From the NCBI GenBank assembly GCA_902776835.1, contig CACYRK010000001.1, positions 1 through 64,000 on the forward strand: a stretch of DNA of 64,000 nt, read 5' to 3'. A model generated the notes under the pieces. It was not told the origin of the DNA. It saw nothing but the letters and a program-made list of their open reading frames with translations, and did no database searches. The position numbers and the translations under genes were made by a program. The stretch is from an uncultured Bacteroidales bacterium. GTDB lineage: Bacteria > Bacteroidota > Bacteroidia > Bacteroidales > Muribaculaceae. Below, one piece after another: positions 240 to 35,975 of this stretch. Position 1 is the first letter of the stretch. Every line of letters begins with the position of its first letter.

Positions 240-1457
240 ATGTCAAAAAAAATGTGTGCATACAGCCCACGCAAAAACAAGGTTAGTACAGCGGTGCCGC
301 CGGTCACGACGGCGAGCAATGTGGCATTCGTCAAGCAATACACCCGTGCGGTGCTGCGCGAGGGCCAAGAGTGGTATATCGAGTTTTATGCCTACGACCC
401 GGCGCTGGCACGCCTGCGCCGCAAGAAAATAAAACTCAACCGTATCAAAAAGATCACCGAGCGCCGCGCATACGCCCGCGAGGTTATCGGGCGTATCAAC
501 ACGCAGTTGCAGCGCGGTTGGAATCCGTGGATTGCGAAGGATGTGGGCACGCTGCACATCTTCAGCGAGGTGTGCGATGCCTACGAGGCTTACATTGACA
601 AAATGTTCAACATCGGCTACTTTCGTAAAGAGACGTGGGCCGGCTACAAGTCTTATTTAAAGAATGTACGTGAGTACGCCAAGAGCACGCAGCAGATTTA
701 CTATCTTTACCAGTTTGACCACGCCTACATCGTCGAGTTCCTGGAATACATCTTCATCGCGCGCAACAATGGTGCACAGACACGTAACAACTACCTCGCA
801 TGGATTTCGGTGTTCTGCGGATGGTGCGTCGAGCGCAACTATTTCAAGTCTCGGCCAACCGATGGAATCTCAGCCATCGACAAACGGCATATCGTCAAGA
901 CCCGTGAGGTTATTCCTACCGATATGGTCAAGCGCATCGGTGAATGGCTGGCAGTGCATGACCGCCATTTCTTGCTGGCGTGTCATCTTCTCTATAACTG
1001 CTTCATCCGTCCGGTGGAGATGACGCGCCTCAAAATCGGCTGGATTAACATCCAGGAGGGCACCATCACCATCCCTGCCGAGGCGAGCAAGAACCGCGAG
1101 ACCATGGTTGTGACATTGCCGGTCAAGGTGCTGCACTATGCCATCGACCTCGGAATTTTCAACTCACCCGGCAGCGATTATATTTTCTCGGAGAAGTTAT
1201 TGCCAGGGCCAACACAGATTGACACGAAGATCTTCCGCGACCACTGGCAGAAGGTGCGCAAAGCGTTAAACCTGAAAAAGGAATGGCAGTTCTACTCGCT
1301 GAAGGACACGGGCATCACCGAGATGCTTGACAGCCATATCGCGAGCATCACCGTGCGCGACCAGGCCCGGCATTCGTCGCTGGCCATCACCGAACTTTAC
1401 ACGCGCCACATGCGCAAGGCCAACAAGGATGTGCTTGAATGGGAAGGCTCACTCTGA
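240..1457 (+). CDS. int: Prophage integrase (tyrosine recombinase)
   Basis: A 405-residue tyrosine recombinase expected to integrate and excise the prophage. An N-terminal arm-binding-like part (about 30-100) is followed by a SAM-like core-binding domain (about 105-205) and a catalytic domain (about 225-400). Visible catalytic positions are Arg257 (FIRPVEM), Lys284, His378 (ARHSS) and nucleophile Tyr387 (ELYTRH). The usual HxLR box reads YSLKD (352-356), with Lys where the second Arg is expected; the second recombinase of this phage has the same change. It lies next to attL, transcribed into the prophage, and its end overlaps the convergent tail gene by 9 bp. Met5 is an alternative start. Confidence 0.93.
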   Translation: MSKKMCAYSPRKNKVSTAVPPVTTASNVAFVKQYTRAVLREGQEWYIEFYAYDPALARLRRKKIKLNRIKKITERRAYAREVIGRINTQLQRGWNPWIAKDVGTLHIFSEVCDAYEAYIDKMFNIGYFRKETWAGYKSYLKNVREYAKSTQQIYYLYQFDHAYIVEFLEYIFIARNNGAQTRNNYLAWISVFCGWCVERNYFKSRPTDGISAIDKRHIVKTREVIPTDMVKRIGEWLAVHDRHFLLACHLLYNCFIRPVEMTRLKIGWINIQEGTITIPAEASKNRETMVVTLPVKVLHYAIDLGIFNSPGSDYIFSEKLLPGPTQIDTKIFRDHWQKVRKALNLKKEWQFYSLKDTGITEMLDSHIASITVRDQARHSSLAITELYTRHMRKANKDVLEWEGSL

Positions 1458-3410: not shown

Positions 3411-6400
3411 TTGCGTTTCGATTTAGGGAGCGTGTTGTTCATCAGCCTTTGGTACTCATCTTGCGCCTCCTTGATCCCCATGTCTCCGGTAACCGTGTTG
3501 ACGGTGACAAACGGCTCGTTGAGGCGGTCGGTCAGGCGCGCCATAGTGCCGTCGTAGTTGCCCAGTGCCGCGGCCACGGCCACCATCAGTTGCTCGGTCT
3601 GTCCGTCAGAGGCAGCACCGGCGATCACGGCTGGAGCGGTGACCGAGCGCGACACGTCGGCGGGGCGCAGCGAGCCGAGCGTGTTGTTGCGCTGCGCATA
3701 GTCAAGTGCATCGATCATCGGGCGAGCCACCGGGTTGGCGAGCAGCCGCTGCGACGCCACCCACTCGCCCGCATGGACTACACCAACAGCTTTATCTTTC
3801 GGTCCCTTCGGAGTGAATCCACCCTCAGCGAAGCCCTTGGCCTCGCTTGCCTCCTGCTGTTTTTTGATGGCAGCCACCTGCACCGCACCGGCAGCGAGCG
3901 CCATTCCGGCGGCCACAGGGCCAAGCCACCACGCGATCTTTGACGCACTGGCATAGGCATTGATGGCGGCGAGAGCCGTTGAGGAGATGGCGTTCATCAC
4001 TTGCTGGGCGAACTCCTTGCGCTGTGCCTCGGCCTTGATGCGAGCCGTTTCCTTTTCTTTCTTGCGCTCGAGGGCCTTCACCTTGCGGTTGTTGCCCTCG
4101 GCCATGGAGATTTCGCGGTCATACTGCCTCTCGAGTCGGGCCACCTTGATTTCCGCCTCGGCTTGCGCCAGTTGGTTGAAACTCTGCATCATCGAAGTCA
4201 TCGAGGCGAAAGCGTTCTTAATGGTCTCGCCATACTGGTCCCAAGTGCCTTGGCCGAAGATTTTGTCAAGAGCCTTTCCAATCCAGTCTTCCCATGACTT
4301 GCCTGTAGCCTTCGCCGCATCATCGATGCTCTTAATTGCTTTTTTATATTTATTCTCAAGTTCGCTGAGTTGTTTCGCCTTTTCGTCAGGCGAGAGGCTG
4401 TCGTCATTCATAATAAGAGCCTTTCGCATCTCATAGGCTAATGTTAGTGTTTTCTTGGTCTCCTCAACCATTTTTTCACGCTTAGACTCCTCATCCTCGG
4501 CATATTTCTCCCATACCGCATCGAGTTTCTCACGTTGCGCTTTCTCATTGGCGATATATTCAGCATGCCGCTTTTGCTGGTCAGCAACGAGCCGCTGGCG
4601 GTAGGTTTCCTCCGCGCGGCGCCGTTCCTCGGTTCCCTCCTTGGTGAGCTGCGTCAAAGCCCGCAGGTGGGCGAACTCGATATTCTCCATCTGCATATCG
4701 AATGTTTCCTTTGATATGCGGTTCTGGAGGTAATCTTCCTGCACCTGTCGGCGTAGGTCTTCGTAGGCGGCATTCTCCTCGGCGATGGTATGCGCCTGTG
4801 CGCGCTTGTCGAGCTTCTGTTTCGCCTCCCAGTATTTGGCTTGTGCATCGAGCCGTTCGTTTTCGGTGAGGTCGGTTCGCTCCAGCAACTTGTTTGCATA
4901 CTCCATGTCGATTTGCTCCAGCCGCTGTTGGTGCTGCTCGTAGTCGGTCTCACCCTTGAAGTTGGCAATCTTGGCGAGGGCAATCTGCTGTTCCCGCCAG
5001 TCCTTCTCGGCCTTGAACTTGTCAACCTCTGTTGTGTGGCCACCGCCGGAACCAGTCGTTGTCTCGGAACCAGTCGTTGTCACGGAACCACGGTCGCCAC
5101 TGCCGCCGTCATAACTGTAGGCATCTTCAATGGCGGCATCAATTTCATCTTCATAAGGTTGCCATTTGCGCTCCACCTGCTGTTGATACACACGCGTACT
5201 CACATATTGGCGAGTATAAGCTGTCATCGCTTCCTGCAAGTCAGCATCATCGAAGCCTTGCTCACCGGGAATTTTGCCAAACTGTTTCTGTGTCTGCTTG
5301 GCATAGGCTCTAAAAACATAACTCTGAACTTTGTCCCACGACCTTGCGCCCGAAGCCCATGCCTCGTCGGCCGCGGCCTTAAGCCAGGCTCCACCTCCGG
5401 CAAAGCCATGGTCCCCAGCCACCTTGTCAAAATCCGCAAGACGTTGGGCTTCCCATCCATAACGCACACCAACGGTTTGCTTGAAGTCATTTTCCTTGGC
5501 CTCGAGCAGCAGTTTCGCCCTCAAGTGCTTGACAACCTCCTTATAGGCAGCAGCAACTTGTTGCGCTGTAGATTTTTCTGAAAGCAGGTTGGATAGGTAA
5601 CCACCAAATTTGTCGTTGAACTGTTTGATGAGTGCATTTCTTTTTGAACTGCCGACATTTTCAGCATTGATGGCATCGGTCAATCTCTTTACAGCCGAGG
5701 TTTCTTCGCCTATACGGGCTTCTGCCTGGCGTATGGCTTCTGCCGACTGCAACGACGCTTTTCTTAACCGTTCCTGCTCGGCTCGAGCATCCTCGGTCTT
5801 CTTCCGCAAGTTGTAAATGGCAAGAGCTGCGGCTGTCACTGCCGTTATCAGCAAACCAAACGGATTGGTCTTGATAGTGGCATTCAGCGCAGCGAATGCG
5901 ATACGGGCTGCCGTGGTTCCACTGGTGAAAGCTATCTGAGCGACACGGGCGAGTCCAAGCACATAGGTATATCCCTTCTGTATAGACGTGCCCAGGCTCA
6001 CTATTGCATTCCAGCCTGCCGTCACAACGGCGGCAGCCTTAGTTGCGGCACTGTGTGCTGCCGTGGCGATGGCCGATGCTTTGACAGCAATCGTGTAACC
6101 GGCTAGAACAATCGATAGGTTGACCAAAGCCTGTGTGTGCTGGGAGATGAATGTAACAGCGGTCGACAGGGCCTTCATCATCGCCGCTGAACTGGTGATG
6201 GCATACTTCATGGCCGGTGCCAATTTCTCGCCAAGTTCTACAGCCATTTCATTGAAGCGTTTTTTAGCCTTTTCCAACCCAGCCTGTACTGTATTGTTCT
6301 GCACGTCAAACTCTTTGGTCACAGAAGTACCTTCTTGGAATGCTTGATTTGCCATCGCTTGTTGAGCACGCACCTCGTCAATCTTACCTGCAAGCATGGT

Positions 6401-11035: not shown

Positions 11036-11929
11036 TTATGTTGGTTGTTTCGCTAATAACGCCCTTTGTAGATAGCACTTGCCTTCTTGATTCTCCACAA
11101 TCTTTGAAACGTCTAACATATCAATAAGTATCATATAACAATGATGTAGACTCAACACACTGTCTTGCAGATTCTGGTTCGCTTCCAAGTCCACGATATT
11201 GAGACCTGCTTGTCTGCAGTCTTCTTTAGATATATGACGAGCGTGCGAATAGCTATTCTTGTGATCGAGGAACGTACTTTTGATAACATTTATATCTATA
11301 TTTGGATTGACTTCTTGAATCCACTTTGTGGCTAAAGTCTCAGACCAAGTTAAAGTATCTTCACAAGCTGTCAAGAAAGTTGGGTTTAGTTTTCCATAAA
11401 TTTTTTGCCATAAACCCAAGGATGCTGGGTTACTTTTGACTTCGCTCACAGCTCTTCTAAACTCATCAATAACAGTTTGACACGCCACCCCATTCAGCTG
11501 CGGGTCAATCGGTCCCAAGGAGGATTGATGGCCCATAATGATTTCTTTACAAGACATAGCTATCATTGTCCCGGCAGACATCGAAATTTGAGGTACGATT
11601 GCACGAATATCATTATTGAACATCTTCTTAAGATATGCAACAATACTCTCAGTAGCTGCAATTTCACCGCCTGGTGTATGAAGAATCAAGTCTAGCCCTT
11701 TTGTGCGATCCAACTGGTGAATCGCATTCATGAAAGCATTCTTATCGTTGTCGTTTATATCTACATTAGGTGCTCCAGGATGTTTGAGCCAACCTGAATA
11801 ATATGTTATCACATTCCTGCCTGTAATTGTCGAAATGCATTCTAAATAATTATGACGCAATTCGGTCAATTTGGCAAGCGGCTGAGTGTGCGTGTTCACT
11901 TGCTCAAAAATATCACTCCATCCAGGCAT
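11036..11929 (-). CDS. ClpP/SppA-fold serine protease, SDH_sah-like
   Basis: A 297-residue protein resembling the serine dehydrogenase proteinase family of the ClpP/crotonase fold. The oxyanion-forming LILHTPGGEI (about 80-89), the likely nucleophile serine in QISMSAGTMIAMS (about 113-125) and SSLGPIDPQ are typical. No signal peptide is seen, so it probably acts in the cytoplasm. It is the last gene of a five-gene AT-rich cassette, starts inside the stop of the preceding gene (TAATG), and is followed by two terminators. Possible roles include processing of a partner protein or host defence; substrates are unknown. Confidence 0.8.
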   Translation of the reverse strand: MPGWSDIFEQVNTHTQPLAKLTELRHNYLECISTITGRNVITYYSGWLKHPGAPNVDINDNDKNAFMNAIHQLDRTKGLDLILHTPGGEIAATESIVAYLKKMFNNDIRAIVPQISMSAGTMIAMSCKEIIMGHQSSLGPIDPQLNGVACQTVIDEFRRAVSEVKSNPASLGLWQKIYGKLNPTFLTACEDTLTWSETLATKWIQEVNPNIDINVIKSTFLDHKNSYSHARHISKEDCRQAGLNIVDLEANQNLQDSVLSLHHCYMILIDMLDVSKIVENQEGKCYLQRALLAKQPT

Positions 11930-24901: not shown

Positions 24902-25957
24902 TCAATTCAATTTGTTCAACAACTCATTGGCGTCGGCGAGCGCGGCGAAGTAGTCATCGCCGGTAACATTGCTCTCCTTGCCGTCATCAATCACTTGGGC
25001 AGAATTATCTGCGGGTTTCTTTTTGAGATCCGCAATCTCCTGCTCTTTCGCGGTGAGTTGGGCACGCAGGTCGGTAATCTCCTTGTCGCGGTCGGCGACT
25101 GTAGAGTGCAAGGTGGCAATCTGCTCGCCATCGGTGGCCATGTGGTCCTCGATGACTTGCACCTGCTCCTCTGTCACGACGATGCGCCCGTCCTCGCTTT
25201 CGAGGTGCTCGCACTTGAGAGTGCGGCACACGTTCACATAAGTTTTCTTCATTGCGTCAAGAATTTTTGTTTCGGTTTTACTTTTGAACACGTTTGACAA
25301 CGCCGCCATCAAGCGACGCAGGAAGTTCTGCTCATCATCTGCTTCATGGCGCAGGCACTCAGGCATGGGAATACCTTCGGCTGCCATGAAGTTTTTCACG
25401 TCCTCGGTGATGCGAGGTTTCTCATCTTCGGGAAAGTCGGTCACCTCGTCCACAAAGCCCCAGTCAAGGGCTTCCTGAGCAGTGAGCCACGCACCCTGCT
25501 TCATCAACTCGAGCAGAGCTTCTTTATCTTTCTTGCATCGCGCAGCATAAGCACCGGCGATGTTCAAGTCAATCTTGTCGAGATCACGTTTGGTTTTCTC
25601 GCACTCTTCAATCAGCTGTTGCAGCTGATCAGCGTTCATCATGTCCCAGCGGAACACCATCTGCGAACATTTGTGGACCAGGTACATTGCATTCACGTCG
25701 ATACTCACACGCTTTGCACCTAGCGAAGCTATAGTGGCGGCACTGGCATTCATGCTCTCATAGTGAACATGCACGTTGCCATGCCGCTTGAAGGCGGCAC
25801 TCACACTGAAAGCCGTTGCCACATCACCGCCCAGCGAGTTGATGAGCACCTGCACCTCCTTGTCGGCGTTCTTTTCAAGGATATAGTCCACGTAGTCGGA
25901 ATCAAAGTTCCAGCCGCCCACGTAGCCTTTCAATTTGAGATGATATTTTGTTGCCAT
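24902..25957 (-). CDS. Head maturation protease with C-terminal scaffold
   Basis: About 351 residues from the ATG at 25957; an in-frame GTG at 25975 is a poorer start. The N-terminal ClpP-like domain (about 1-190) has VQVLINSLGGDV and the nucleophile serine in ESMNASAATIASLG (about 69), with a likely histidine in MYLVHKC. The C-terminal part is a charged coiled coil (DREITDLRAQL-like, about 240-320), expected to act as a scaffold removed during maturation. It is coupled to the capsid gene. Confidence 0.88.
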   Translation of the reverse strand: MATKYHLKLKGYVGGWNFDSDYVDYILEKNADKEVQVLINSLGGDVATAFSVSAAFKRHGNVHVHYESMNASAATIASLGAKRVSIDVNAMYLVHKCSQMVFRWDMMNADQLQQLIEECEKTKRDLDKIDLNIAGAYAARCKKDKEALLELMKQGAWLTAQEALDWGFVDEVTDFPEDEKPRITEDVKNFMAAEGIPMPECLRHEADDEQNFLRRLMAALSNVFKSKTETKILDAMKKTYVNVCRTLKCEHLESEDGRIVVTEEQVQVIEDHMATDGEQIATLHSTVADRDKEITDLRAQLTAKEQEIADLKKKPADNSAQVIDDGKESNVTGDDYFAALADANELLNKLN

Positions 25958-25975
25958 AATCCGATTATTTGCCAC

Positions 25976-28290: not shown

Positions 28291-28330
28291 AATCGGGTGT
28301 CGGTGCGGCGCAGCAAGCCGATACCCGATT
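28291..28330. repeat. Hairpin repeat copy 1
   Basis: AATCGGGTGTCGG and CCGATACCCGATT form a 13-bp stem with one G-U around a 14-base loop. The same hairpin recurs in direct orientation at 28481-28516. Confidence 0.65.
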
Positions 28331-28480
28331 GCAACGGAGACTGCCGTATGCGCTTCCGCAATCGCCGTCCGTGTCGAGCCACAAGCCGCAGGCGCAAGCA
28401 CTTTCTCCGCCGGATTGAGGTGCAGGGCGCAATGGAAATGACCGAAAGAGCCGGATGCGCGGGTTTGGCGGTGGCAAATG

Positions 28481-28516
28481 TCGGGTGTCGGCGCGGCGAA
28501 GCAAGCCGATACCCGA
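28481..28516. repeat. Hairpin repeat copy 2
   Basis: TCGGGTGTCGG / CCGATACCCGA with a loop differing from copy 1 at only two or three positions; the following GCAA is also shared. Confidence 0.65.
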
Positions 28517-28690
28517 CTGCAAGTGAGCCGTGAGCCGATGTCCGTAACGGTCAGATCATCGCCGACAAGCCGAACCAGTCCTAAACGCCGTCCACATCGG
28601 GGGCTGTGGGTGGGCATAAACAACAGAAGGCCGCGCCGTCACGACGTGGCCTTCATACATTTGCCTAAATACAAATCTTTATGAATAAAT

Positions 28691-30479: not shown

Positions 30480-31349
30480 ATGGAAATTAAGAAAATCGCT
30501 GCGCATTATCGTCAGTATTTGGCACGAATGATTAAGCAAAGCACACGTGCAGACTACACCAAACGACTTGAGATGCTTGTGCACTACGCCTCCATGCACA
30601 GCATATCAGCCATTGAGGACATTGATTTCTCGCAGTTCCTCGACTGGGTGTATATCGAGCGCGGTGTCTCGCCTCGCACTCACAACAACTACCGCACATG
30701 GTGCCTATCGTTCTGCAAATGGCTGCGACAGCAGCACTATATCGCCGGCGACCCGCTGCTCGATGTGCCGCCGTTGAAAGAACCGCCGAAGGTGCGCCAG
30801 CCTCTGCCACCCAGCGAACTAAAACGTGTGCGAGACTTCCTCAACGAACGCAACAAGCACTTCCTCCTCGCCGTGATGATGGAATACTATTGCTTCATCC
30901 GTCCTGACGAGCTGTCCAACATTCGCATCGGCGACATCGACGCGAAGGCACACGCTATCTATGTCCGGGCAGAAATATCAAAGAACGGCAAAGCAGAGAT
31001 GGTGGGTCTCAACAATGCGGTGCTGTCGCTCATGAGAGATCTGCACGTCCTTCGCTCACCAAAAGACTGGTACCTATTCAGTGTGCGCTGCCGACCAGGG
31101 GCGACAAAACTGCACAGCCGCATGTTCCGCGACCGATGGGCGAGGCTGCGCAAGCGGCTGGATCTGCCAAAGGAATACCAGTTCTATTCGTTGAAAGACT
31201 CCGGCATCCGCGACCTCGCTAATGCCGAGGGCATCGTTATAGCTCGTGACCAAGCAAGGCACAGCAGCGTGGCCGTCACCAACAAATATCTTCAAGGACG
31301 TGACCGTCCTGTGCACAAGGAAACAATACGGTTCAAAGGCGCGTTGTGA
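30480..31349 (+). CDS. Tyrosine recombinase, putative tail-fibre DNA invertase
   Basis: A 289-residue recombinase from MEIKKIAAH at 30480. A SAM-like domain (about 5-95) precedes a catalytic domain with Arg141 (FIRPDEL), Lys168, His261 (ARHSS) and Tyr270 (NKYLQ). YSLKDSG (236-242) replaces the HxLR box just as in the prophage integrase; the two share FIRP, SLKD and DQARHSS blocks, so they are paralogues. Its stop codon lies inside the left 31-bp inverted repeat, so inversion leaves the protein intact. Position and repeats imply it inverts 31346-34700. The N-terminal arm domain of the integrase is absent, as in many dedicated invertases. Confidence 0.88.
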   Translation: MEIKKIAAHYRQYLARMIKQSTRADYTKRLEMLVHYASMHSISAIEDIDFSQFLDWVYIERGVSPRTHNNYRTWCLSFCKWLRQQHYIAGDPLLDVPPLKEPPKVRQPLPPSELKRVRDFLNERNKHFLLAVMMEYYCFIRPDELSNIRIGDIDAKAHAIYVRAEISKNGKAEMVGLNNAVLSLMRDLHVLRSPKDWYLFSVRCRPGATKLHSRMFRDRWARLRKRLDLPKEYQFYSLKDSGIRDLANAEGIVIARDQARHSSVAVTNKYLQGRDRPVHKETIRFKGAL

Positions 31350-31376
31350 GGAGGACGCCCTCTCGGCGGAGATGGG
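31346..31376 (+). repeat. Left 31-bp inverted repeat of the invertible segment
   Basis: Begins GTGAGGAGGACGCCC and ends CGGAGATGGG; identical to the reverse complement of 34670-34700. It encodes the recombinase stop codon in one frame and EEDALSAEMG in the frame of the silent module. Confidence 0.95.
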
Positions 31377-33216
31377 GAAAGAGCTTGGCAATATGCTAAT
31401 AGAGAGGACAGAAACACCATTAAGCGGTGCAACCACTAAAAGGGCAAAAATCTCCAATACAGGTATAATAGTGACAGGTAATGAAGGCTATGGCACTATT
31501 ACTACAATTGATGTGTCAAGTATCACAACGAGACTCCGCATATATGGCAACTGCACTGGATATGCGAAGTGCGCATTTGCTTTTTATGACACAAACGATG
31601 CTTTGGTACAAAAAGGGGACTCTTTTATTGGTGACGATAATATCAATGTAGATGTCACTGTAGCCAAACCGTCAACTGCTGCAAAACTAGTGTTAAGCCA
31701 AAATGTTGGGACAACATCCATGTTTGCGACAGCAATCATAGAGTCAGATAAAGTTGACAACTTGCAAAAAATTGTCAGTGAGATGTCACCTGCCATATTT
31801 AGTTCAACGAGTAGAGGCCTATATGGTAATGATTTAATACTTAACTCTAAAATAGATGCCAGTGGCAACATCATATACAATGAATCATTCGGTTTTATAA
31901 CGCAAATCCCCATACCAAGCGGCACATCGAAAGTACATATATATGGCAATTCGGGTGTTTACAATAAAACACTATTCGCTTTTTATCAAGGTTCTAACCT
32001 CGTAGAAAAAGGAGATTCCTATGCAGGTGATTTCAATGTTGATGTAGATAAGGTTGTAGAAGTGCCAGATACTGCAGACAACATAAAGCTCTCTCAGAAC
32101 GTTGGAAGTAGTGGCAGCTTGTTTGTCGAGTTTGTGATAGATACAACCGAAGCAGATAGTGTCAACTATAATGTCAATGACTTAACAAATTTCGGCAGCC
32201 TTAATTATGCAGAGCTAATGGCTTTGCATTCAGCAGCACAAGCAAGGGCAGAGGGCAGAATGATTTTTGAGGATGATTTTAACGGATACAAACTTAACGA
32301 TAATATATGGAATGTTGATCAGGGGCAGTTCCTAAACAGGATAACCTATGTCAATGCAAAAGAGAATGTATGGGTAGAAAACTCTATATTGCATATTAGT
32401 GCATCAAGGCGCAACCGATATGGCAAGGTCTCAATGGGACAAGTCACAACAAAAGGCAAGTATGACTTTGCAGGGAATGTTAGGATTGAAGGTAAATTCA
32501 AGATGCCGACTATTCCGTGCTTTTGGCCTGCCTTTTGGACATGGGGTACTGATACCTATGCTGTCAGTCAAGGTGGCGGAGCTTATGCGGAACTTGATAT
32601 ATTTGAATTGTTTGGCTCGGCACAAGACTCAACTAATGGTAGGGTCTCATCAAATCTTTGGACTGGCGATGCTGTCGGTGACGGTTCTACAAGTGGATTG
32701 ACACAAGGCGGTGGTAGATTGTTAACAAATGATGGTAAGTGGCACATCTATACAGCCGACATATTTCAAAACAAAGTCATCATATCACTTGATGGCACAC
32801 CTCTATGTAAGTGTGCTTTGACAGATGAAAAAAGACAATATGTATATACTATGCGCCAATATGTGATGATGAGTGTGCAGTTTTGGGATAGAAATAGTGC
32901 CACAGAAGAACTCGATGGTGCAACTCTTGAATGCGACTGGGTACATGTATATGCTCTTGATGACACTGCCATGATGCCATCAGCAATAACGGTAGACTCC
33001 ACATTAAGCATGTCGGTAGGTGACAAGGTTAGACTTATACCTTCTCTTGGCAACTGTCATGACCAGACAACAACCTATGATATAGTTAATGAAAACATTG
33101 TTGGTCATGGTGATATTGTACACAGTGAACTTGTGGCAAAAGCTGCTGGCACAACTGACGTATTTGTGAAAACAAAGAATAGAAAAACAGCTAAATGTAC
33201 TGTGACGGTCAGTTAA
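31350..33216 (+). CDS. Silent tail-fibre C-terminal module with GH16 domain
   Basis: An open frame with no start of its own; it runs backward into the recombinase gene. Joined to the fixed N-terminus it would give a 755-residue fibre. After the shared EEDALSAEMGK come two tandem beta-sandwich repeats of about 100 residues (each with an IYGN..., a KGDS... and a LSQNVG... block). Next comes a GH16 endoglycanase-like domain (about 32263-32960) with active-site motif ELDIFE at 32590-32607. Last is a Big2-like Ig domain at the C-terminus. GH16 enzymes cut beta-glucans or galactans, so this could degrade a capsule. Confidence 0.85.
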
Positions 33217-33237
33217 CCGCTTTACTTGGCAGATAAC

Positions 33238-33276
33238 AAGAGGGTGTGTCATAATTCAGTTATGGCTCACCCTCTT
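33238..33276. terminator. Bidirectional hairpin between the two convergent modules
   Basis: AAGAGGGTG / CACCCTCTT (9 bp) encloses an inner CATAA / TTATG stem. It sits centrally between the two stop codons, so it can serve whichever module is active. Confidence 0.65.
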
Positions 33277-33300
33277 TGCCTTATCAAACTCCAATCTAAA

Positions 33301-35097
33301 TCAACAAAATGGCTCTTTAATCCAGTTTGCAAGTCCGTTATATAGCCATTCGGCAATGAGCATGTGATAGTGCGGAGTTGGGTGTATGCCGTCATTCGCA
33401 AAATATGCTGCTTTCATTGGTGCGAGAAAGGCAGGGACATTGCAGTTAGAGAACTGGTCAATGACTGGAATGCCATACAATTTCGCCACATCCTTAATGG
33501 CATCAACATAGTCGTAGAGGAATTTCCCTTGCGTGTTGGCTGTCCATGCGCTTTCACGCTGTGGCGGTGTTACAATGGCTATTTTAGCCGTTGGACATTT
33601 TGCGTAGATTGCCGAGATTGCTTGATGGATGCCACCGCACATTGTTGTCGTGTCGGTAGTCGGTATTATAGTGCCGTTGCTTACATCGTGGATGTTCCCG
33701 ATTGGGCAATTATGCCCAAAGTCATTTGTCCCTGCCATAATAATGATGAGTTTTTCGTTGCCAGTCAAATTGGATGCCTGTGCTGCGATTTGCCCATCGG
33801 CATAAGTCTGCCCTGCAATGCCGAAATTCTCGCAGTTCGCACCAGTCCTCTGCTTAAACATTGTGACATAGTAGCCAAACGTGTTTGGAGAGGTGATGCT
33901 ATCGCCAAGAAATGCAACGTCCACACCTTTTAGAGGCATTGGCGAAATTTGCCTTAATTTAACGTTTGTTTCGTTTACGAGTTCATGCTCAGCCTCTAAA
34001 CTCCCATAAAACAAATTAACCGTTGCTTGCGTTATGGTCATGTTAGTGCCTAACCTTATGCGAGCATAGACAGCACCGCTTGGAACACTGGCACTCAAAA
34101 AATAGGTTCTCACATTTATAAGATTGAGGCTCTCGTCAAAAAAGGCTATCACTTGCTTCGTATATTGCCCATCTAAACAGCTTATAACTTTTGCGCCATA
34201 CACTGGGATTAAGCCGTAGATACTCTTCCACTCAGCACTATATGACTGCTCACCAGTGGTTGAGTCTACCACGCTACTACACGTTGGATATACTAACGAG
34301 CGAACAAAAAAATTGCCCTTATCAACCTCTGCTATAGGTTCACCGATAGAGTAATCTATCGTGACGTTATCCGTTTTTTCTCGCCCATACGAAAAACCTG
34401 CATAGACAGCACCACTCGGAAACGCAGAAGATTGCACAATAGGAGTGCTTGTCATGCCCAATTTGGTTGTCCCATCTGCGCCAAAATATACAACCCTATT
34501 ACTTAAAGAGCCAGTGACATCTAATCTGGTTACATTTGTAATGTCAATTAGCGCATGGTTGTATGCCCCATCCACAAGGTCGCCTTGTGCGTTGTAGTAA
34601 CCATGCGCACCACATATAACCATGCAGTGATATGTCTTGCTGATAGAGCCTCTTTTGTTTAGTTTCTTGCCCATCTCCGCCGAGAGGGCGTCCTCCTCAC
34701 CACCTGTCTCGAGGTCGTTGACGAGCACCACATCGCCCAGGTGCACACCACTGTCGCCCTTTGGGCCGGGTTCGCCTGGTGCACCGTCAGCACCTTTGAG
34801 TTGTGCGCTTTGGTATTTGCCGTCAAGCGTATCGCCGCCGGTGCCTACCCACACATAGAGCGTCGTGCCGAGCAGATAGCCCTTCATCTGCTGCTCCGTG
34901 GTGGGTGATGTGGGCAACTCGCTTGTGCTGCTGATAACCACATAACCTTTGATGGCGTTCAGTTGCATACTCGTCGAAGGGAGCTTGTCCACAATCTGCT
35001 GCAACACATAGCCCACGTGTTCCGGCGACACACTGTCGGCTTCCGTCTCGGCTCGCAGTGCCGAGATCAATTCGGTCAATTGAGATGTATCTACCAT
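33301..35097 (-). CDS. Tail fibre, active form with SGNH hydrolase domain
   Basis: About 598 residues from MVDTSQLTEL at 35097. Fixed part 1-132: an N-terminal attachment region, then a short collagen-like GADGAPGEPGPKGDSG stretch (about 102-117). The inverted repeat encodes residues 133-143. The variable part has two beta-sandwich-like domains (about 150-380) and an SGNH/GDSL hydrolase with blocks FLGDSIT (about 395), FGIAGQTYADG (about 424), AGTND (about 454) and DGIHPT (about 568). This enzyme class removes acyl groups, such as O-acetyl from surface glycans. It is the receptor-binding candidate of the phage. Confidence 0.88.
   Translation of the reverse strand: MVDTSQLTELISALRAETEADSVSPEHVGYVLQQIVDKLPSTSMQLNAIKGYVVISSTSELPTSPTTEQQMKGYLLGTTLYVWVGTGGDTLDGKYQSAQLKGADGAPGEPGPKGDSGVHLGDVVLVNDLETGGEEDALSAEMGKKLNKRGSISKTYHCMVICGAHGYYNAQGDLVDGAYNHALIDITNVTRLDVTGSLSNRVVYFGADGTTKLGMTSTPIVQSSAFPSGAVYAGFSYGREKTDNVTIDYSIGEPIAEVDKGNFFVRSLVYPTCSSVVDSTTGEQSYSAEWKSIYGLIPVYGAKVISCLDGQYTKQVIAFFDESLNLINVRTYFLSASVPSGAVYARIRLGTNMTITQATVNLFYGSLEAEHELVNETNVKLRQISPMPLKGVDVAFLGDSITSPNTFGYYVTMFKQRTGANCENFGIAGQTYADGQIAAQASNLTGNEKLIIIMAGTNDFGHNCPIGNIHDVSNGTIIPTTDTTTMCGGIHQAISAIYAKCPTAKIAIVTPPQRESAWTANTQGKFLYDYVDAIKDVAKLYGIPVIDQFSNCNVPAFLAPMKAAYFANDGIHPTPHYHMLIAEWLYNGLANWIKEPFC
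34670..34700 (-). repeat. Right 31-bp inverted repeat of the invertible segment
   Basis: Reverse complement of 31346-31376, all 31 bases. It lies inside the tail-fibre gene at residues 133-143 and marks the border between fixed and variable parts. Confidence 0.95.
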
Positions 35098-35128: not shown

Positions 35129-35136
35129 CAAAGGTA
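35129..35136 (-). promoter_or_regulatory. -7 element TACCTTTG of the tail fibre
   Basis: Exact TAnnTTTG match 32 bp before the tail-fibre ATG and outside the invertible segment, so both forms share one promoter. Confidence 0.65.
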
Positions 35137-35156
35137 GAGACAACGGCCAAAATCCC

Positions 35157-35198
35157 AAAAGACAAGAAAAGCCCCACAGCCGGGCATGACTGTGGGGC
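35157..35198 (-). terminator. Terminator after HicAB
   Basis: Minus-strand GCCCCACAG / CTGTGGGGC stem followed by TTTTCTTGTCTTTT; it isolates the tail-fibre promoter from hicAB transcripts. Confidence 0.8.
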
Positions 35199-35229: not shown

Positions 35230-35637
35230 TCAGACAAAACGAACTTGCTGTAATTCGCTGCCAAAATTGTGGAGGGCATCCTCGATCTTCTTCGTGGTCT
35301 TAGCGCTCGGATTGCGATAACCGCTCACATATTGCGACAGCTGGCGCTCGTTGATGCCGGTGATACGGCCCAAGCCGGCCAAGGTCAGCAATCCTTTGTA
35401 GTAGTTCAAGAATGACGGTACATCGTAGCTGAAGTCAAATTCCACTTCCTCAAAGGTCTCGCCTTTTTCTTGATAATAAGCCTTCATTTCTTCGTAGGCC
35501 TCGCGGAAGTCGGCAATAGTGTCGGCAATAGTGGTGCCATCACCGATAACGCTCCAGTCAAGACCGTTTTCGTCGAGCATATAGGCCCCAAAAGTGCCAT
35601 CCTCGCCACGCTCAATAAAAACTCTTACCTTTTTCAT
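35230..35637 (-). CDS. hicB: HicB-family antitoxin
   Basis: A 135-residue antitoxin. The N-terminal HicB fold (MKKVRVFIERGEDGTFGAYM, about 1-65) binds and neutralises HicA. The C-terminal helix-turn-helix (ITGINERQLSQYVSGYRNPS, about 92-111) should bind its own promoter. It follows the toxin gene, the usual hicA-hicB order. Confidence 0.88.
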   Translation of the reverse strand: MKKVRVFIERGEDGTFGAYMLDENGLDWSVIGDGTTIADTIADFREAYEEMKAYYQEKGETFEEVEFDFSYDVPSFLNYYKGLLTLAGLGRITGINERQLSQYVSGYRNPSAKTTKKIEDALHNFGSELQQVRFV

Positions 35638-35679
35638 ATCTTATCGTTTTTATGGTTTATCGACATAAGCGACAAGGGC

Positions 35680-35865
35680 TTAAAGCCCCGAGTCGCGCTT
35701 GATTGATTTTAATGTCCCCGGCTTCACTTCTTGTGACAAGTGATTGCTTGTCGTGAATTTCTTGCCGGTAATCGGGCTATACCACAAAGGGTGGCCGTTA
35801 CGCTGTTGGTGCAACTCATAGCACCCGATTTTTCTCAGCAGTTTGTGTAGTTCGCTATACTTCAT
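35680..35865 (-). CDS. hicA: HicA-family mRNA interferase toxin
   Basis: Sixty-one residues from MKYSELHKLLRKIG at 35865. The double-stranded-RNA-binding-like fold has the catalytic histidine in RNGHPLWYS and a second SNH. HicA toxins cut translated mRNA. Together with HicB it could stabilise the prophage or act in abortive infection. Confidence 0.88.
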   Translation of the reverse strand: MKYSELHKLLRKIGCYELHQQRNGHPLWYSPITGKKFTTSNHLSQEVKPGTLKSIKRDSGL

Positions 35866-35891
35866 TTTCGTTCTCTGATTGATTGACGCTG

Positions 35892-35899
35892 CAAAGTTA
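35892..35899 (-). promoter_or_regulatory. -7 element TAACTTTG for hicAB
   Basis: Exact TAnnTTTG match 27 bp before the hicA ATG. Confidence 0.6.
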
Positions 35900-35941
35900 A
35901 TGCTTTTATTTTTAATAGCAAAATATTTTACCAACTTTTTC

Positions 35942-35975
35942 AAAAAAAAGCCCCGAGGCCTTTCGGTCCCGGGGC
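35942..35975 (-). terminator. Terminator after the XRE-zinc ribbon gene
   Basis: Minus-strand GCCCCG...CGGGGC hairpin with inner pairing GGCC/GGTC, followed by eight T residues. Confidence 0.75.

Follow-up and report, generated by a model that had tools for sequence, protein, structure and literature searches.

The window, that is, the whole stretch of 64,000 nucleotides analysed here, holds a 3,355-bp segment that is predicted to be inverted by an adjacent short recombinase, swapping the SGNH and GH16 ends of a phage tail fibre. The probability of this reading is put at roughly 0.9. Two fibre ends converge within this segment, and a perfect inverted repeat of 31 bp bounds it. The left arm, a predicted crossover region, is located at 31346..31376 (plus strand), and the stop codon of the short recombinase falls inside it. 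The right arm is located at 34670..34700 (minus strand) within the fibre gene, at about codons 133-143 (GGEEDALSAEMG), where the repeat bounds the alternative C-termini. The fixed N-terminus would carry either the SGNH end, as it does at present (598 aa), or the GH16 end (755 aa). When the inversion was computed, the longer form was obtained in frame, residues 1 to about 143 were common to both forms and the recombinase (288 aa after its Met) was not altered. The perfect repeat around two convergent C-terminal modules and their in-frame joining to a shared N-terminus, both proposed in the initial annotation, were thus confirmed. The match between the arms can be extended to 37 bp at 95% identity. 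No other perfect inverted repeat of at least 16 bp was present in the window at a spacing of 300-9000 bp, and across 20 mononucleotide-shuffled windows the longest one measured 13-16 bp. The crossover point is placed no more finely than somewhere in the arm; the comparison of arms resolved no crossover core or dyad, and the dyad signal was not convincing.

The C-terminal module joined at present (33301..34695, minus strand) is an SGNH/GDSL hydrolase domain (PF13472, 5e-19). It possesses the GDS, GxND and DxxH blocks of the family, and its GDS, GTND and DG-HP blocks, which have the usual SGNH roles, are conserved in 10 aligned rows. The silent module (31351..33216, plus strand, 621 aa) contains a GH16 domain (PF00722, 3.1e-6; 27.2 bits with a cut-off of 22). 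Its nearest solved structures are laminarinases and beta-glucanases, such as ULam111 (5wut, 5e-9). The residues E414-L-D-I-F-E419 are invariant across 5 aligned rows and fit E-x-D-x-x-E, the GH16 motif. Structure prediction of the fibre ends, suggested at the outset as a check, was successful for one of them: the SGNH model (mean pLDDT 63) matched the SGNH hydrolases 7bxd and 3bzw, and the GH16 model was too weak. Because the latter model was poor (pLDDT 53.7), the GH16 assignment is based on sequence. The joined end is putatively esterase-like, and the silent end putatively resembles sugar-chain-cutting enzymes. In searches of viral_contigs, 9 of 103 candidates were confirmed by alignment with the SGNH end, all of them distant (25-30%), and none of 61 with the GH16 end. 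The silent module had been described as having no start, which overstates the case: an in-frame ATG that may serve as one is found at 31372 in the arm, and the database protein P0001 is a 614-aa call from there.

The short tyrosine recombinase (30480..31349, plus strand, 289 aa; PF00589, 2.4e-13) is likely the invertase. A SAM-like domain is also present at its N-terminus. R141, K168, K239, H261 and Y270, presumably the catalytic residues, are invariant in the alignment. The window encodes a separate long tyrosine integrase (240..1457, plus strand, 405 aa) that is 34% identical to the short enzyme. The tyrosine recombinase noted earlier beside the segment is distinct from this integrase. Long integrases are 379-458 aa in length, and about 100 of their N-terminal residues are missing from the short recombinase. 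From this length and alignment, the short recombinase probably has no arm-binding domain. The Pfam matches are to the tyrosine family only, with no serine resolvase/invertase domain.

The current fibre gene (35097-33301, minus strand, 598 aa) begins with the fixed N-terminus (34701..35097, minus strand), which carries collagen-like repeats and is outside the segment. A promoter-like motif, TTTG-N19-TACCTTTG (35129..35159, minus strand), is also outside the segment, 62-32 nt upstream of the fibre ATG. This pair, which resembles the Bacteroides consensus, may drive fibre expression. Relatives with the window-type N-terminus bear many differing C-termini among the 120 matches listed of 157 in the protein database. 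According to precomputed assignments for the matches listed, the domains behind this N-terminus are SGNH, LamG, LRR_5, M14, AstE-like, PF03009, PF00768 and PF03629, the last three being GDPD, S11 peptidase and SASA, respectively. Since so many C-termini follow one N-terminus, end diversity is common, and the short invertase is a device added to it. In this Bacteroidales genome, the genes around the segment are those of phages (tape measure, portal, terminase, head protease, amidase and antirepressor). Two head-protease-like genes are found (11036-11929 and 24902-25975), possibly reflecting two prophages or a mosaic. A HicA toxin-like gene (PF07927) and an HTH_3 (HicB-like) gene lie immediately upstream of the fibre (35230-35943). 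A 47-nt direct repeat (28293-28339 and 28481-28527, 89% identical, 188 nt apart) is located where there is no clear gene.

The arrangement is not confined to the window. Among 138 distinct recombinases compared in the loci examined, an identity of 60% or more to the window enzyme was taken to define the same type. Nine belong to this type, with identities of 66-100%: the window's, those of L004, L005, L006 (partial), L007, G098 and G060, and two in G055. The gene was found in 4 of 397 genomes of the family and in one of 30 genera (E up to 1e-90). In the tree, the eight window-type recombinases included formed one clade (SH-aLRT 99), and three others also labelled short (L014, L161 and L175) fell outside it. 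An origin of the invertase from within the long integrases was not supported by this quick tree (midpoint root, long branches), which gave it a clade of its own. Short and long recombinases are found on one contig in G098. Both arms were present on one contig in five of the nine cases (perfect repeats of 31 bp in the window, 35 bp in L007, 22 bp in L005 and 20 bp in G060, and 12 bp in L006, the last read by eye), and the remaining four contigs stop before any second arm. In L005, L007 and G060, an equivalent of the window's left arm coincides with the stop of the recombinase gene. In contrast, no inverted repeat of at least 16 bp was found at the stop of the 129 recombinases below 60% identity, 105 of which had at least 3 kb downstream. 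In all four loci with arms of at least 20 bp, the fibre frame was open in either state when inversion was computed. The joined and inverted lengths are 1025 and 413 aa for L005, 757 and 731 aa for L007, and 835 and 1103 aa for G060.

The Pfam content of the ends was compared in six loci. The ends of L007 are SGNH and peptidase M14, whereas L004 has SGNH on either side and L006 has LRR_5 on either side, all above the cut-offs. Neither end of L005 has a Pfam match, and a separate SGNH gene lies behind the silent one; the ends of G060 likewise have no match, and a metallophosphoesterase gene lies behind the joined one. Hits to BNR_2 in L005 (22.6, cut-off 31.4) and to PF03372 in G060 (19.8 bits, cut-off 24.5) were rejected. 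Therefore, switching between enzyme classes is clear in two of the six (window and L007) and absent in two; L005 and G060 fall to neither side. The proposal that the swapped parts are different enzyme classes holds for the window (SGNH and GH16) but not for L004 and L006. The window, L005, L007 and G060 have one silent end only. Positions 690-9200 of L006 may hold three ends: a silent one on the plus strand, one after the stop at 5389 and the joined LRR_5 end.

Compared over 21 nt, the two arms of a locus share 76-100% identity in the five loci, and arms of different loci average 68% (52-81%). The true left-right pairing scored best of 120, although the L006 arms (76%) are less alike than the most similar pair from different loci (81%). 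The exact 29-base arm pattern had no match in viral_contigs. In G098, two contigs end at an identical arm base. These breaks fit two continuations, but a short assembly word would have the same effect. G055 (L047, L048, L092 and L093) has two short recombinases, with module pieces on both fibre-side and recombinase-side contigs. The C66 and C29 arms share 28 bp, and the ends of C65 and C66 share 90% identity across 294 nt. These crossed contig pairs were rejected as opposite orientations; they are suggestive at most because the modules are mosaic.

A search of related prophages for the opposite orientation, one of the checks proposed originally, showed that G004 and G072 (L050) differ by the inversion of a stretch whose flanks are co-oriented; these are loci other than the window's. 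G004 is a genome of the same genus as the window's. The first 149 residues of the two fibres are 94% identical, and their ends differ. When both loci are turned to read the fibre forward, the fibre flank is co-oriented over 525 nt (93.3%), and so is the far flank over 303 nt (94.1%) and then 2,057 nt at 87.2%. The 100 nt that end the fibre-joined cassette of G004, by eye part of an oxidoreductase-like gene, lie inverted in G072 with 98% identity. After them in G072 comes the remnant of a short recombinase, namely its initial 48 codons, with 69% identity to that of L005. No recombinase remnant was found in G004. In the simplest history suggested by these alignments, one invertible locus would have been caught in both orientations and then locked by deletions. 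Since the recombinase is lost in both genomes, the inversion is a historical one and we infer its enzyme. In G058, a truncated short recombinase (L049, 9061-9807; recognisable over its first ~80 codons, with about 60% identity to that of L005) overlaps the terminal part of an SGNH-like gene that lies downstream, behind a fibre, and represents another decayed switch.

Such decay raises the question of whether the window's segment once inverted and is now fixed, the GH16 end being a dead archive. The window locus has a single orientation in its own genome assembly (3.09 Mb, 53 contigs), and the losses in G072, G058 and G004 indicate that switches do decay. However, the 31-bp repeat is perfect, synonymous positions included, the recombinase frame is intact with its conserved residues kept, and the silent 621-aa frame and its motif are also intact. 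A fixed segment is therefore considered very unlikely, and the window's own segment would probably still be inverting.

Natural joins of the predicted kind were found in other genomes and proteins. The silent cassette of L005 is 94.7% identical over 1,597 bp to fibre-joined DNA of G072. The alignment starts at the first arm base (L005:8125), directly upstream of which no base matches, and in G072 a fibre N-terminus precedes the matching base. The computed inverted junction of L005 is exactly that of G072 over the 24 nt that precede the arm start and the 65 nt that follow it. In P0002, a fibre N-terminus that shares 55% identity with the window's in 189 columns is fused at the same codon to a GH16 end that is 85% identical (533/626) to the window's silent end. 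Counterparts of the silent ends of L004 (P0090 and P0094; 86% and 85%) and L005 (P0075; 91%) are also fused to fibre N-termini. In-frame fusion is indicated by natural proteins as well as by the four computed loci. Fibre-fused counterparts were obtained for three of eight silent ends among 124 database proteins, which had been gathered with window queries only. Taken alone, the L005/G072 match and fusions of the P0002 type could reflect horizontal exchange of cassettes. The fusions also bear on the possibility that both ends are made together, with GH16 translated alone as a separate enzyme from the arm ATG after recombinase read-through. The ATG at 31372 with its 614-aa database call and the direction of the recombinase gene, which reads towards the GH16 module, agree with this possibility, but homologous modules occur joined to fibre N-termini, with the same codon as the junction, and it is judged highly improbable. 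It is hardly credible that the repeats are mere coding homology (a common ALSAEMGK fibre motif) serving general homologous recombination between phages: similar motifs do recur inside single fibres and the N-terminus is common to many fibres with different ends, but the repeat accompanies the stop of a single recombinase type and of none of the 129 others, the arms match best within loci, the L005/G072 breakpoint is the first arm base, and the G004/G072 stretch is inverted rather than just exchanged.

Inversion of the segment by the short recombinase can be compared with known systems. Gin of Mu and Cin of P1 are serine invertases that swap fibre ends. As in the window, their inversion swaps ends behind a fixed N-terminus and the recombinase adjoins the segment, whereas the window enzyme is of the tyrosine family (PF00589). 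Gin/Cin inversion is summarised in PMC8987985. The contrast with Mu and P1 drawn in the initial annotation holds for the enzyme family but overlooks Rin, a tyrosine invertase for receptor-binding proteins in Bifidobacterium prophages (PMC6109161). Switching of the Rin type is also reported in Eggerthella lenta prophages (PMC8778435). Judged by the architecture described in these papers, Rin is the closest known system. Both have a tyrosine recombinase without an arm-binding domain on one side, a constant fibre N-terminus on the other and variable C-termini between them, with the repeat inside the receptor-binding gene and the invertase separate from the prophage integrase. In contrast, Rin as described there has several short ends of 95-100 residues, arranged in tandem as a shufflon with short asymmetric sites of 11 bp (8 bp in E. 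lenta). The window type has, in four loci, a single silent end besides the joined one; its modules span about 230-850 aa and are often enzymes, its repeats measure 20-35 bp, and its hosts are Bacteroidota instead of Bifidobacterium and Eggerthella. Tyrosine-invertase and promoter switches of Bacteroides (Tsr15, invertons), which PMC6109161 and PMC8042965 mention, are likewise small site-specific inversions in Bacteroidales. Invertons move promoters, whereas the window's segment carries coding ends and its promoter-like site is outside. Searches of one open-access collection, preprints excluded, yielded tyrosine-invertase fibre switching from Bifidobacterium and Eggerthella only and not from Bacteroidota phages, and the sections consulted of PMC8042965, PMC8987985, PMC5903667 and PMC7511551 describe no such switching.

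What is new here is the occurrence in Bacteroidota phages and the swapping of whole, often enzymatic, fibre ends. Tyrosine-recombinase fibre switching is thereby extended past Actinobacteria, where the descriptions found previously are placed. Further such loci could be found simply by looking for a repeat at the stop of the recombinase, and the decayed loci of G072 and G004 illustrate the way in which a switch may be fixed in one state. Switching of the capsule and the outer surface is a known trait of Bacteroidales hosts. Both ends may act on host surface glycans, and switching may alter adsorption. We tentatively propose, at somewhat less than even odds, that in a lineage of gut Bacteroidales phages the short tyrosine invertase alternates whole enzymes like exchangeable tools, so that the particles released by one lysogen attack different surface glycans in answer to phase variation of the host surface. 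The predicted alternation would be between esterase and glycosidase in the window and between esterase and carboxypeptidase in L007. If this is true, a phage switch between two catalytic ends would be a countermeasure to host surface switching.
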